The position numbers were made by a program, and so were the translations under genes. The notes beneath the pieces are model-generated. The model did not search any database. It was not told the DNA's origin and saw only the letters and a program-made list of their open reading frames with translations. This document shows, piece after piece, positions 12,827 to 61,100 of a DNA stretch of 64,000 nt; position 1 is the stretch's first letter; each line of letters opens with the position of its first letter. Origin of the DNA: Methanosarcina vacuolata Z-761 (GTDB taxonomy: Archaea > Halobacteriota > Methanosarcinia > Methanosarcinales > Methanosarcinaceae); NCBI RefSeq assembly GCF_000969905.1, contig NZ_CP009520.1:3038001-3102000 (forward strand). Direction: 5' to 3'.

Positions 12827-13195
12827 ATGGTAAAACGAATGATAGTAAAAATTGACGAAAATAAATGCACAGGCTGCGGAAAATGTGTTGCACCCTGTGC
12901 CGAAGGTGCTATTAAAATCATTAACGGAAAAGCAAAGGTCGTATCCGAGGAACTCTGTGACGGTATGGGCTTTTGCCTCGGCATATGTCCCGAAGGCGCA
13001 ATCTCAGTTGAAGAAAGATATACCGTCGAATTTAACCGGGAAAAAGCCGAAGCTCAGCCCCGGAAAAAAGATATCTCTATCCATTGCTTCACCTGTGGAG
13101 CAGGCGAAGATACCAGCTATCTCCTCCCACTCAGGCACAACATGCAGAGCCTCTGGGTCTGTACCCACTGCCTCCCAAAACTGATTCACGGTTAA
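12827..13195 (+). CDS. ferredoxin-type 2x[4Fe-4S] protein with C-terminal cysteine motif
   Basis: The 122-residue protein has a cluster motif CTGCGKCVAPC (about residues 12-22) and a second one in CDGMGFCLGICPEGA, so it should carry two [4Fe-4S] clusters and shuttle electrons. A C-terminal extension with HCFTCGAGE and VCTHCLPKL could hold zinc or a further metal. The ATG at 12827 is chosen because a GGGGG ribosome binding site ends 8 bases upstream. Single genes of this type serve as redox partners in methanogens. Its 3' end has been copied twice downstream. Confidence 0.88.
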   Translation: MVKRMIVKIDENKCTGCGKCVAPCAEGAIKIINGKAKVVSEELCDGMGFCLGICPEGAISVEERYTVEFNREKAEAQPRKKDISIHCFTCGAGEDTSYLLPLRHNMQSLWVCTHCLPKLIHG

Positions 13196-13209
13196 TCCAG
13201 TTATTTTAG

Positions 13210-13453
13210 AATTCAACCCTCTTGAACCATAGCGTAGCGAAAAGGGCTTCGTCCTCCCGAGACGGGACTCGGGATGAAAAGCCTATGGGTATGTACCCGC
13301 TGCCTTCCTAAATTGATTCACGGTTGATCAGGAATTTTATAATTCAGCCCTCTTGAGCGAAGCGAAAAGGGCACCGTCCTCCCGAGACGGGACTCGGGAT
13401 GAAAAGCCTATGGGTATGTACCCGCTGCCTTCCTAAATTGATTCACGGTTGAT
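13210..13453 (+). repeat. two tandem copies of the 3' end of the ferredoxin gene with hairpin linkers
   Basis: Two units of about 131 and 113 bp (starting 13210 and 13341) each run from a GCGAAAAGGG segment through CCCGAG-ACGGGA-CTCGGG (a perfect 6-bp hairpin). Each then runs into CTATGGGTATGTACCCGCTG and TTGATTCACGGTTGAT, which repeats the last codons (LWVCTHCLPKLIHG, with R for H) of the upstream ferredoxin gene. The copies are near identical to each other and less like the parent. Confidence 0.8.
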
Positions 13454-13459
13454 CGGTTA

Positions 13460-19367: not shown

Positions 19368-19427
19368 TGCAGTGCCTCTGGAAAACTTCCCCTCTTCCTT
19401 GCAGAAATGAGATCCAGAAATTCCAGG

Positions 19428-19547
19428 TATGATGCCGAATATGATGCCGAATATGATGCCGAGTATGATGCCGAGTATGATGCCGAGTATGATGCCGAGT
19501 ATGATGCCGAGTATGATGCCGAGTATGATGCCGAGTATGATGCTGCG
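19428..19547. repeat. 12-bp tandem repeat, 10 units
   Basis: TATGATGCCGAG is repeated ten times (the first two and last units vary by one to three bases) between the methyltransferase and permease genes. Because 12 is a multiple of three it creates long periodic frames on both strands that are not genes. Confidence 0.92.
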
Positions 19548-21889: not shown

Positions 21890-22240
21890 GTCAATACCTC
21901 TTATAGTCTAAAAAATTGTAATTATTCGGCTGGGTAATAATAGCATATCGTAACTATCCAGCCTAGATAAAACAATATCAATATTCATTTTTCACTTTAC
22001 TGATTTTTCCGGAATGAAGAAACCTTGAAAATATCCGTTTCCAAACATAATCCTGTTATTTCAGAGATTGTTCACGGCATGTTGTTATCGTATGTCGTTG
22101 TCGTAAAAGGAGAGACCCATTATAACTCACTACAGAAGTTTTCTCCTCTGCAAATCTCTCCCCTGGGACATACATTTCTACAAATAACATCAAACCTGCT
22201 GTCTGCAAACGTTAGCTTTTCCTTGCGTCCTCCTGTAAAT
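21890..22240. other. gap between binding-protein genes, with part of a MITE
   Basis: Positions 21951-21987 (TAACTATCCAGCCTAGATAA and onward) match the left end of the element at 57103. An AT-rich inverted motif, ATTATT-N7-GTAATAAT, lies at about 21921-21943 and may be an operator. No gene is supported. A 123-codon plus frame reaching into 22396 is antisense to the downstream binding-protein gene and is rejected. Confidence 0.5.
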
Positions 22241-54042: not shown

Positions 54043-56664
54043 TTAAACTCCCTTAAAATAGTGCCCTGTAGTATATTCAACTCCTCTTGCAGGTTTCAGC
54101 CTGGTTTCTTTTCCTGCAAGAGCTTCTTTGTATGCCGCTATAATCTCTTTTATCTCAGCCTGTGTATTAAATGAAAGATCAAGCCGAAGCACATCCACAC
54201 CGTAATCTTTCAGGTTTTTGACGTACTTCAGCATATCAAGCACTTTTGAGTTATAAATCAGGGTCCGGGTCCCCAGGCGCTCTACCGGAAATTCGGAACT
54301 TTCCTGGTCAACAAGAAGCACTTTGCTGTCCTTTCTTACAATTCTTCTGTCAACAAGGGGCTTTAAAAGGTCATTTTCCGTAATGAGCATAAGCTCTCTG
54401 CCGTAAACAAAAATTTCAGTCTGTCCTGAGCCCTCGCAAGTTTGAAGGGCCTCACAGAGATTTTTGATCTCGCTCAGGTTCAGTTCGCTTGAAAGGGTCG
54501 ATCTGTATGCTCCTGCCTGGTAAAGAGTGCTGGCAGTAAAAGCATTGAAAATATTGAACTCTTTCCCTGCGGTAAAGGGTATGGAAAGCTCTTTTGCAAG
54601 CTGTAAGGTCCCGAAATCAGAACAGGCTATCCCGAAACCTGCCTCTTTAACTTTTCCCAGCAAGGGTTTGAGTTTATCCAGTTCATAATCATGATTTATA
54701 AGAGGAACCCGGAAAACAATTTCGACCCTTTCAGCTTTCAAATCTTCAAGCTTTTCCGCATTTTCAGTTGCGGAAAGCTCTTCAAACTTCGAAACCGGAA
54801 CATAGATAACGTCTGCACCGGCGAACGCGGCCTCGAAGAGAGAGTGACTTTCATTTACTTCAACACTAAGAAGGAGCCTCTTTGAAGCTGAATTTCTGCC
54901 CCGGGTTTCACTGAGGGTTTTGTTGAGGGCCTCATTAACGGCTGGAGACTGCTCATATTGATAACTCGCTTCACTGCAGCGGCTTTGAGAGCTACACAGG
55001 TGACTGAAATCCTCAAGCTTCGGGTGCTTTTGCTCTCTCTTATCTACACTGAGGATTTTTTCCAGCAGGAGGTCTGCTGCCTTTCTCCTTGCATTCTTCA
55101 GCACGCCGACCGGAATGAAAATATTTTCATCAGCATCAATCTCAACAGAGACTGCCTCAAAAGAAGTGTCCCCAAGACTTTCCATTGCTTTTCGTATCTT
55201 CTCGGCTGTAGTTGGGGCTTTCTCAGCTTCCTGGACGACATAATCATCCGTGAATTCCACAAATGGAACCTTCTCTGTGGTCTCACTGGTCTCTCTGGGA
55301 TTTTCACTTTCTTCTCTAATCACAACCGTAAATCGCTCTCCTTTCCTGGCTCTTACTTTCAGGCTTACAGGAAGCGTTTTTAGTTTTGTTTTTTGAAGGG
55401 TGTCGAGGAGCCGTGTATCTGTTGTAAGGTAGAGTTCATCACCTCTCTGGACTGCTCTTCCTGTCTTCGAGCTGATTTCAAGCCCTACTTTCTCACCTTT
55501 TTGAGCACTTATTATATGCTCGCCTGAGATTGTGAGTAGGCCTGTAACTGCCGAGCCGAGCATCCGCTCTCGCGTGAAAATACTTATACCGTCTTTTACC
55601 TGGATGTCCTGATTCAGCCGAACTGTGAGTTTCGTATTCCCTTTTGAACGGGAAATATCAAGGACTTTTCCAAGGAACGCTCCATAGTTTGAACTGTATT
55701 TAGGATGAGATACGCCTTTTTCTCCGAGTATGAAACCTCTTGTAAAGCCTCTGTAAAAGAGTTTTGCAAGTTCGGATTCTCTTGCTTCAAGTTCCTCTTT
55801 TGTCGGATTCTCTCCTGGACCACAGATTCCTTCGACTGCAGCCTTATAGGCAGCAGCACTTGCAGTAACGTACTCAGGCTTTTTCATCCGCCCTTCTATT
55901 TTAAGGCTTACAACTCCGGTTTTTATGATTTCCTCAAGCCCTGTTAGTGTGGAGAGTTCGGCGCAGCTGATGGGATAACTGCCACTGAGATGTCTTTCGT
56001 CAACTTCCCTGCCGTTTACAACGAATCTGTACCGGCGTCGGCAGGGCTGGGCACAGGCCCCCCTGTTTGCGCTCCTGCCATGCAGGAAACTGCTGAAAAG
56101 ACATTTGCCCGAATAGGAGTAGCAAAGTGCTCCATGGACGAAAACCTCAATTTCTGCATTTGAGTGGTCCACGATGTCCTTTACCTCAGCCGCAGTAAGT
56201 TCCCTTGAGACTATAACTCTTTTTGCTCCCAGCCCTGCTGCAAAATCGACTCCTCCTTTATTATGGATAGTCATCTGGGTACTTGCATGAAGCTCAAAGT
56301 CCGGATAGATTTCATTTAAAAGCCTGAGAAGCCCCAGGTCCTGAAGGATAACTGCATCGACTCCGGCTGCATATGCACAGTCTGTAATCTCAAGCGCGTG
56401 CTGCAACTCTTTTTGCTTGATCGGGATATTGAGGGCAAGGTAAACAAGAACTCCGTGTGAGTGCGCCAGTTTCACGGCCTCGTCAAGGTTCTCAATAGTG
56501 AAATTCTTTGCACCCTGACGGGCATTGAATTCGCCAACCCCGAGATAGACTGCATCAGCTCCTCCTCGAATTGCAGCAAGAAGGGCTTCTTCGTCACCTA
56601 CGGGAGCCAGGACTTCAGGGGGGGTACATGTATAATTTTCAGTAGGATAATTTTCAGTAGACAT
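54043..56664 (-). CDS. U32 peptidase-family protein, candidate RNA hydroxylase (RlhA/TrhP type)
   Basis: The 873-residue protein has the U32 barrel (PPEVLAPVGDEEALLAAIRG and ADAVYLGVGEFNARQGAKNF), the signature VFVHGALCYSYSGKCLFSSF, and the four-cysteine site completed by RGACAQPCRRRYRF. The DUF3656 insert is followed by a second TIM-barrel half (about residues 600-860, LLSVEVNESHSLFEAAFAGA then DVIYV). In bacteria such proteins hydroxylate cytidine or uridine in rRNA or tRNA using prephenate-derived groups and an Fe-S cluster. That activity in archaea is an inference; protease activity is doubtful. Confidence 0.9.
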   Translation of the reverse strand: MSTENYPTENYTCTPPEVLAPVGDEEALLAAIRGGADAVYLGVGEFNARQGAKNFTIENLDEAVKLAHSHGVLVYLALNIPIKQKELQHALEITDCAYAAGVDAVILQDLGLLRLLNEIYPDFELHASTQMTIHNKGGVDFAAGLGAKRVIVSRELTAAEVKDIVDHSNAEIEVFVHGALCYSYSGKCLFSSFLHGRSANRGACAQPCRRRYRFVVNGREVDERHLSGSYPISCAELSTLTGLEEIIKTGVVSLKIEGRMKKPEYVTASAAAYKAAVEGICGPGENPTKEELEARESELAKLFYRGFTRGFILGEKGVSHPKYSSNYGAFLGKVLDISRSKGNTKLTVRLNQDIQVKDGISIFTRERMLGSAVTGLLTISGEHIISAQKGEKVGLEISSKTGRAVQRGDELYLTTDTRLLDTLQKTKLKTLPVSLKVRARKGERFTVVIREESENPRETSETTEKVPFVEFTDDYVVQEAEKAPTTAEKIRKAMESLGDTSFEAVSVEIDADENIFIPVGVLKNARRKAADLLLEKILSVDKREQKHPKLEDFSHLCSSQSRCSEASYQYEQSPAVNEALNKTLSETRGRNSASKRLLLSVEVNESHSLFEAAFAGADVIYVPVSKFEELSATENAEKLEDLKAERVEIVFRVPLINHDYELDKLKPLLGKVKEAGFGIACSDFGTLQLAKELSIPFTAGKEFNIFNAFTASTLYQAGAYRSTLSSELNLSEIKNLCEALQTCEGSGQTEIFVYGRELMLITENDLLKPLVDRRIVRKDSKVLLVDQESSEFPVERLGTRTLIYNSKVLDMLKYVKNLKDYGVDVLRLDLSFNTQAEIKEIIAAYKEALAGKETRLKPARGVEYTTGHYFKGV

Positions 56665-56761
56665 TTTTGATCAGTTTGTTCTTTCCGGCTGGAAGGTTTT
56701 GTAACTATGAAGAGAAAGCTATACAAACGGTTTACATGAAAAGCTTAGCAGAATGCAGATA

Positions 56762-56873
56762 GATGAGTAAAGATAAGTAAAGGTAAGTAAAGGTAAGTAA
56801 AGGTAAGTAAAGGTAAGTAAAGGTAAGTAAAGGTAAGTAAAGGTAAGTAAAGGTGAGTAAAGGTAAGTAAAGG
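56762..56873. repeat. 10-bp tandem repeat, about 11 units
   Basis: AGGTAAGTAA is repeated about eleven times with single-base variants, upstream of the U32 gene on its promoter side. Confidence 0.9.
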
Positions 56874-56982
56874 AATAAAGTTCAGTTTAAGACGTAAAGG
56901 TACTTCTTGCATAAAAATGGATGGGTAAGCCCTTGACTTTTATTGTGAGAAAACTTATTGTAAACCTGAAAACTTTAAACTT

Positions 56983-57325
56983 ACTGTCATCGTAAATCTG
57001 ATCTTATTGTTATCGTAAATCTGATCTTATTGTTATCGTAAATCTGATCTTATTGTTATCGTAAATCTGATCTTATTGTTATCGTAAATCTGATCTTATT
57101 GTGTAACTATTCAGCCTATATAAAACAACATCAATAGCCACCTTGTTTAATATTTAATGAGCACTTTTTTGGAAGGTTCATTTTTTTAAATTGTTGGTTA
57201 TTGATTGCGTTTTTCAGTCTTGCATGGGTTAGCAATTTCACGTATGTGACAACTCTGAATCAACATCAGTAGATTGATTTGGGGCACCTGAATAGTTACC
57301 TTATTGTTATCGTAAATCTGATCTT
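56983..57325. repeat. 23-bp tandem repeat array interrupted by a MITE
   Basis: Five units of ATTGTTATCGTAAATCTGAT plus CTT lie at 56983-57097. The sixth unit begins at 57098, is interrupted by the insertion at 57103-57299, and resumes at 57300-57325. Confidence 0.92.
57103..57299. mobile_element. 197-bp MITE with 12-bp perfect terminal inverted repeats and 8-bp target duplication
   Basis: GTAACTATTCAG at the left end and CTGAATAGTTAC at the right end are exact reverse complements. The element is flanked by CTTATTGT at 57095-57102 and 57300-57307. Removing the element and one duplicate restores a regular 23-bp repeat unit. The core is non-coding. A partial copy of the left end lies at 21951-21987. 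Confidence 0.85.
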
Positions 57326-58072
57326 ATTTTGGATCTGCAGCTGTTCATTTCAGACTTATTTCTGCTTATTTGCAGATTTGATAGCCCTTGAGTAAATCTA
57401 ATGTTTTTTTAGAGTTTTTAGTTCGAGCTGAACCATTTTATTCACGCTTTTAACTTTAGACATATTAATAAATATTTTTGCTTAAAACAGAGCTAGTTTA
57501 TCCACTTAAACACTTATAAGACCTCAAATTAAAGAACCTGTTAAAATAAAAACGAGTGCAAATCTATATATAATTATAAATATTTTTTATTATATAAAAT
57601 TCGCTGTAACCAGATAACTATCTGAATCTGGTTTTACTTGCTTTGTTGCATGATTGCACAGGATTCTTGGTTCGTTTGAATCCTCTTTTACTCTTTAAAC
57701 GGTGAAGCTTCGTAAAACGAATGAGTGCTGCAGGGATGCGCACAAATTAACCCACAGATTATACGCAGTTACCAGTTCGGCATAGACAGACTAATTAATT
57801 CTGCAACAGGGCAGCTATACTTGAATCTGCGTATTTTCAGAAGCTTCGTCCAGGATGAGTTATGACCTCATGTAAACTATTTGAGAGGAACGACTCTTAT
57901 TGTCTCGATCCCTCAATAGGTAAAACTTTAAAAAAACACCAATCTCTACAGAAACACAATACAACCTACCTTACTTTGAACAGGTTCTTCTACCTGACAA
58001 CGGTAAAAACAGTCTCGGGATCTCAAAACCAGACCTCTGAAAGATGGCTTTACAGCATAAGGAGGGGCTGGA
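57326..58072. other. gap without recognised gene upstream of the MATE gene
   Basis: AT-rich sequence with TATA-like stretches at about 57567-57595 (ATATATAATTATAAATATT). A 73-codon plus frame at 57862-58083 overlaps the MATE start and has no family features. GGAGGGG at 58058-58064 is the MATE ribosome binding site. Confidence 0.45.
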
Positions 58073-59899: not shown

Positions 59900-60964
59900 A
59901 TGGAAAAAACAAAAATCCTGGAAAACATTTTCAAATTATTTCTTATCTTTGTGCCGCTGAGCCTGCTCGCAGAGTATACACACTCTTCGCCCATAGCAAT
60001 TTTTGTTTTAGCTTCGCTTGCAATCATACCCCTTGCGAAATTTATCGGTGAATCGACAGAGGAAATTTCGGCACGTACCGGCCCAGCACTGGGCGGGTTA
60101 TTAAACGCTACCTTCGGGAACGCAACAGAATTAATCATAAGTTTTTTTGCCCTGCAAGCAGGACTTACTGAAATGGTAAAAGCATCGATTACGGGCTCCA
60201 TCATTGGAAATCTGCTTTTGATTCTGGGTATGGCGTTTTTATTCGGAGGTCTCGGAAAAGATGAGCAGGAGTTCAACACGACAGCCGCAAAGACAAGTGC
60301 CTCCACTCTCTTTCTTGCAACTACAGCTATTGTCATGCCGGCTGTTTTCGTCCTTACTTCCGAAAATCCTTCTGATACAATAGTCGAGACCCTGAGCATT
60401 GCAGTTTCGGTCATTATGGCTGTGTCATATCTTGCGAGCCTGCTTTTCTCGCTTCACACCCACAAGCACTTATATACTGTTGATACGGCAGAGTATGTTG
60501 CCAGGTGGAGCGTCAAAAAATCTATTGTGGTTCTTTTCGCATCAACAGTTACGGTTGCTGTTATAAGTGAAATCCTGGTCGGCTCCATAGAACCGCTTGC
60601 TGAAAATCTTGGCTGGACGGAACTATTTATAGGTATGATTTTCATAGCAATTATTGGAAATGCTGCAGAACATGTATCGGCTGTCACAATCGCAATTAAA
60701 AACCGAATGGATCTGGCGCTCCAGATCGCAATCGGCTCGACAACTCAAATCGCTATGTTTGTAGTACCGGTCCTGGTATTCACGAGTTATTTTTTCGAGA
60801 ACCCCATGAATCTGATTTTCACAACTTTCGAACTCGCTGCCATAGTCTCTGCCGTCTTAATGGTCAAATCCATAATAGAAGATGGCAAAAGCAACTGGTT
60901 TGAAGGACTACAGCTTCTTGGAACATATGGAATAATGGCCGTGGTCTCTTTCCTTCATCCATAA
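59900..60964 (+). CDS. Ca2+/H+ antiporter, CaxA type
   Basis: The 354-residue protein has eleven membrane segments in two halves, with the ion-binding repeat motifs GGLLNATFGNATELIISFFA (about residues 65-85) and GNAAEHVSAVTIAIKNRMDL (about residue 252). An acidic loop between them is typical of CAX proteins. It should pump Ca2+ out in exchange for protons. GGCAGAGGAG precedes the ATG. It is unrelated in subfamily to the CaCA protein at 2550, so the window holds two kinds of calcium exchanger. Confidence 0.94.
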   Translation: MEKTKILENIFKLFLIFVPLSLLAEYTHSSPIAIFVLASLAIIPLAKFIGESTEEISARTGPALGGLLNATFGNATELIISFFALQAGLTEMVKASITGSIIGNLLLILGMAFLFGGLGKDEQEFNTTAAKTSASTLFLATTAIVMPAVFVLTSENPSDTIVETLSIAVSVIMAVSYLASLLFSLHTHKHLYTVDTAEYVARWSVKKSIVVLFASTVTVAVISEILVGSIEPLAENLGWTELFIGMIFIAIIGNAAEHVSAVTIAIKNRMDLALQIAIGSTTQIAMFVVPVLVFTSYFFENPMNLIFTTFELAAIVSAVLMVKSIIEDGKSNWFEGLQLLGTYGIMAVVSFLHP

Positions 60965-60965
60965 T

Positions 60966-61100
60966 CGACAAAAAGTAAGCGACAAAAAGTAAGTGACAAA
61001 AAGTAAGTGACAAAAAGTAAGCGACAAAAAGTAAGCGACAAAAAGTAAGCGACAAAAAGTAAGCGACAAAAAGTAAGTGACAAAAAGTAAGTGACAAAAA
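60966..61100. repeat. 14-bp tandem repeat, about 9.5 units
   Basis: CGACAAAAAGTAAG, with C or T at the first position alternating between units, begins 2 bases after the CaxA stop. The minus-strand frames of 68-77 codons over it are repeat artefacts. Confidence 0.92.

Follow-up and report, generated by a model that had tools for sequence, protein, structure and literature searches.

The 64-kb stretch of the Methanosarcina vacuolata Z-761 genome analysed here (NZ_CP009520.1, positions 3,038,001 to 3,102,000; hereafter the window) is part of a host genome of 4.56 Mb in two contigs, and contains a non-coding element of 197 bp with the structure of a miniature inverted-repeat transposable element (MITE). 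The element is located in a long intergenic space, with a U32-peptidase-like gene on one side and a MATE-like transporter gene on the other, both of which are candidate names read from the translations alone. The U32-peptidase-like protein is 88% identical to proteins of Methanosarcina spelaei and of Methanosarcina metagenome-assembled genomes.

The inverted ends of the element, GTAACTATTCAG on the left and CTGAATAGTTAC on the right, are complementary at 12/12 positions, and each of these 12-mers occurs once in the window. The octamer CTTATTGT flanks the element on both sides and is also present once per unit of the surrounding 23-bp tandem array, of which the part left of the insertion comprises 5.3 copies with 98% matches at a period of 23 (Tandem Repeats Finder, TRF). 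When the insert and one octamer were removed, the flanks rejoined with perfect 23-bp periodicity, i.e. the element is in phase with the array. A preliminary description of the window had claimed a 197-bp MITE with exactly complementary 12-bp ends around a non-coding core, set with an 8-bp duplication into a 23-bp array that carries the same octamer in each unit, and all of this was confirmed by the coordinates, ends, flanks and array phase. Since the octamer is found in every array unit, the flanking duplication at this site alone is little proof. The partial left-end copy that had likewise been reported elsewhere in the window is real and starts at 21950; the family model matches it over positions 1-71, and no right end was listed for it.

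Table. Features of the MITE, its insertion site and the second copy in the window
Feature	Position in window	Strand	Basis or remark
MITE, non-coding core with terminal inverted repeats	57103..57299	+	ends; multiple own-genome matches
Left terminal inverted repeat GTAACTATTCAG	57103..57114	+	12/12 complementarity
Right terminal inverted repeat CTGAATAGTTAC	57288..57299	-	12/12 complementarity
Target site duplication CTTATTGT, left copy	57095..57102		
Target site duplication CTTATTGT, right copy	57300..57307		
23-bp tandem array, left part	56980..57102		TRF
Final array unit right of insertion	57308..57329		
Degenerate second MITE copy, truncated left end	21950..22030	+	genome 3059950-3060030; E 1.2e-4; model positions 1-71

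Matches to the element in its own genome numbered 17 by BLAST, and the family model returned 36 rows, among them two that shadow strong matches on the opposite strand; the model is sequence-only, and many of the 35 copies behind it come from this genome and so match by construction. The two closest copies, at 3767080 and 3626049, are 97-98% identical to the window copy (193 and 191 of 197 positions, respectively), and are surrounded by exact 8-bp duplications of their own, AAATATTT and ATAATTAC. It is these different duplications around other copies that prove the 8-bp duplication for the window element. Among the 18 full-length copies of the own genome, 10 carry an exact 8-bp duplication and 13 one with at most one mismatch. 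Sliding the flanks to any of 24 offsets gave exact 8-bp identity in at most one copy of 18, and the flank identity is not due to chance. Full-length copies from other genomes showed exact duplications in 7/20 and near-exact ones in 9/20 cases. Over all 38 copies, exact duplications were of 8 bp in 17 copies and of 6 bp in one, with no other length from 4 to 12 bp, although the score by which copy ends were chosen included duplication mismatch, which gives a small bias toward good duplications. The longest ATG-started frame in any of these copies encodes 51 amino acids, and the lengths are scattered from 3 to 51.

The ends of the MITE recur on full-length insertion sequences (IS) of the IS66 family in the same genome. 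PF03050 produced 17 own-genome matches, and 11 IS66 elements were examined, all with GTAACTATTCAG ends (one with a mismatch) and 10 with exact 8-bp duplications; ten measure 1524-1532 bp and one is interrupted. Their open reading frame (ORF) matches PF03050 at 234 bits, and a zf-IS66 domain is also present. In this genome the MITE and IS66 ends share 12-15 bp; at the right end, the IS has 14-15 bp in common with the window copy and with the two copies closest to it, and 12 bp with an older subfamily copy. Members of the IS66 family have ends beginning with GTAA and 8-bp duplications. The present system resembles the single-ORF (tnpC-only) type of the family in both features and in the DDE_Tnp_IS66 transposase of the full-length partner, but differs in that the MITE has no coding capacity and only its terminal 12-17 bp in common with the IS. 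In the collected loci, a distant IS66-like element with ends GTATCCTCTTCAAATTG and an apparent 8-bp duplication GAATGTTT was also noticed by eye (L049, 4061-5855), adjoining another IS.

A genome from another genus of the same family (G099) contains 33 identical 194-bp MITE copies and seven full-length copies at 99% identity. Exact duplications were present in 24 of the 30 copies that were fetched, with 29 different left octamers. The same genome has 36 IS66 transposase matches, most of them with an uninterrupted 495-aa frame, and the ends of its MITEs and of its IS agree over 15-17 bp. In addition, it holds a composite of 1771 bp (L333, 1333-3103), in which the right 70% of a MITE (positions from about 57 to 194) follows a full IS66 element. 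The IS part is identical to another copy at 1622/1622 positions, the MITE part has a 13-bp internal duplication, and the whole is bounded on both sides by CTTAGTTC, an exact 8-bp repeat. Perhaps one transposition here used an IS end together with a MITE end, and the composite moved as a unit. MITEs beside or inside MITEs were seen at G099:C1:2908088-2908856, 256269-256663 and 620855-621254, and look as if older copies were preferred targets.

The comparisons proposed in the preliminary description had been for further copies and for a full-length IS that has these termini and 8-bp duplications, both of which are present in the same genome as shown above, and for an empty site. Empty sites are present in related species, represented by one genome each. 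No MITE match was obtained in any of the 40 orthologous U32 loci searched, several of which lie on short contigs. Five loci were aligned: in M. spelaei and UBA11020 the insert is missing from an array of ca. 20-bp units, and in UBA5, UBA289 and Bin.035 both array and insert are absent. On this basis, the insertion is younger than the split from these relatives, and the element is not fixed at one place everywhere, nor devoid of further copies. The transposition had also been called recent on account of the intact duplication. This stands in the sense of since the divergence from the M. spelaei relatives, as the closest copies already differ at no fewer than 4 of 197 positions; the intact duplication itself is a weak clock inside a tandem array, in which neighbouring units can repair one another.

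On the evidence of the copies, ends and duplications, the element is very probably a MITE without a gene of its own, moved in trans by the transposase of the IS66-family elements with which it shares its ends. The transposase would bind the GTAACTATTCAG ends, cut the element out and, through cuts staggered by 8 bp, place it in an AT-rich site, leaving the 8-bp duplication; the window copy would in this way have landed in the 23-bp array between the U32-peptidase-like and MATE-like transporter genes. That this IS66 transposase is the mover is suggested at the sequence level by the joint burst in G099 and by the composite. Several observations weigh against the proposal. There is no internal similarity between MITE and IS, the best local alignment to two own-genome IS copies being 17-18 bp. 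Among 24 Methanosarcina genomes, MITE and IS66 counts are weakly correlated (Spearman 0.38, p 0.06; at most about 21 MITE candidates were scored per genome, so that high counts are lower bounds), and presence and absence give p 0.25. Four of these 24 genomes carry the MITE without an IS66 match, as do three outside the genus and outside the correlation (G373, G292, G312); many of these genomes are drafts, where repeats collapse, and MITEs may outlive their helper. The G099 composite could alternatively stem from a deletion between 15-bp direct repeats, with loss of the MITE end. An origin of the MITE by internal deletion of the IS was rejected, since subterminal sequence is not shared beyond the 17-18 bp; without shared internal sequence it is not a simple deletion derivative.

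The weak correlation, the genomes that lack an IS66 match and the unshared interior would suit a MITE moved by some transposase outside IS66. This is improbable, as identical MITEs and IS66 elements burst together in G099, and in the genomes examined GTAACTATTCAG-type 12-bp ends with 8-bp duplications were met on IS66 only, on the basis of PF03050 loci and end-pattern matches, with no survey of other families. Even less probable is a fixed regulatory or structured-RNA element with coincidentally inverted ends, to which the near-constant length (28 of 38 full-length copies of 195-197 bp), the conserved internal motifs and the folding of the window copy, better than that of shuffled sequences with z -4.4 on the plus and -2.9 on the minus strand, might point. 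The copies are scattered over unrelated sites, however, where they have 8-bp duplications of their own, and orthologous sites occur without the element; when the ends were removed, the mean fold z over 36 copies was about -1 on either strand. RNAalifold gave no pairs on the family alignment, and Rfam returned no match in 56600-58000 up to an E-value of 1. A conserved RNA fold was also rejected with RIBOSUM scoring and per-sequence folds, the stem columns 29-35/96-102 pairing in at most 16 of 35 sequences. Finally, the flanking octamers might merely reflect array periodicity around an insert that arrived by recombination between units, and with one octamer per 23-bp unit the equal flanks are weak evidence at this locus. 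Such an origin is scarcely credible, and for the family it is refuted by the two 97-98% identical copies with different exact 8-bp duplications in other flanks.

If the IS66 transposase is the mover, movement in Methanosarcina would also require that a conserved amber codon be read through, presumably as pyrrolysine. Six of the 11 own-genome IS66 copies have a 483-488-codon frame that stays open only with one TAG read as a residue, and the remaining copies are frameshifted or interrupted. The in-frame TAG lies about 93 codons after the start and is conserved in copies with as little as about 59% identity (L050, 3593-5026, and all Methanosarcina IS66 loci listed). A first set of 55 locus rows, many of them duplicates and representing 22 distinct contexts, had TAG in 42, GAA in five, TGA in four, and CAC, TAT, CCC and AGA in one each; a second set of 22 rows had TAG in eight, GAA in 11 and ATA in three. 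Methanosarcina and genus g17 have TAG; GAA occurs in genus g16, and also in a group of its own, from G018 and G264, with ends GTAATTATTCAG or GTAATTAATCAG. The TGA and TAT rows are from G016 and G009, and several G016 rows have additional stops. A PylS match in the own genome scores 409.6 bits against a cut-off of 178.15.

It has already been published that a transposase family of M. acetivorans and M. mazei contains a conserved amber codon, which highly similar genes of M. burtonii lack (PMC2933860). These transposases would seem to belong to the same IS66 group. The amber codon itself is accordingly known, and its tie to the MITE is what we infer here; literature joining pyrrolysine with IS66, or ISBst12 with Methanosarcina, was not found. 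It is a doubtful proposition that MITE spread in Methanosarcina is gated by pyrrolysine, for which it can be said that the sole end-matched transposase found has the conserved amber codon, so that movement would need UAG reading. The GAA codon in g16 implies that the partnership of IS66 and MITE does not everywhere depend on amber reading. Were the gating true, genome rearrangement would be tied to the supply of pyrrolysine and, through it, to methylamine metabolism, and if the amber codon must be read as pyrrolysine, the mobility of a whole set of elements would depend on an expanded genetic code.

The wider family was represented by BLAST matches in 20 of the 24 Methanosarcina genomes, the host included; the tally of the listing itself was 21/39 genomes in two genera, and the family model matched 28/392 genomes of the phylum in 6/136 genera. 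Copy length is 194.9 bp on average with a standard deviation of 2.6 (36 copies, two copies of over 200 bp being excluded), with a mean pairwise identity of 69% and 2.2 gap runs per pair. In the family alignment, made of 35 of the 38 full-length copies, TCAATAG-like motifs were seen by eye to recur near both ends and, inverted, in the middle. A version of 170 bp, again with these ends, occurs in G024 and G035, which belong to another family of the same order. What looked like longer copies in G017 (346-599 bp) proved to be scaffold gaps filled with N and was rejected.

The family is like bacterial and archaeal MITEs in its size below 300 bp, inverted ends, target duplications, many copies and lack of a transposase, and unlike them in that it is not an internal-deletion derivative of any IS found, and in its length, the constancy of which across the whole archaeal family is unusual for MITEs. 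As a MITE the element is ordinary and of a known kind, and it is apparently undescribed in the searchable literature: no description of a Methanosarcina MITE was met, including in the available part of PMC2246112, a weak negative as subscription journals were thinly covered. The results document a MITE family that spans several methanogenic archaeal genera; with its clear partner IS, its empty sites and one genome of 33 identical copies, it offers a good natural system for the study of IS66 transposition.

No MITE match was obtained in the plasmid and phage collections. A 16-bp end pattern matched 19 contigs filed as viral, of which only L242 holds a full family member (803-997), a divergent copy of 195 bp with AAAAATGA as its exact 8-bp duplication. 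Tandem repeats are frequent in the window, with 31 rows across the 64 kb (e.g. 13148-13454, 19427-19543, 56766-56873 and 60962-61100), and several of the arrays are built of 10- to 14-bp units.
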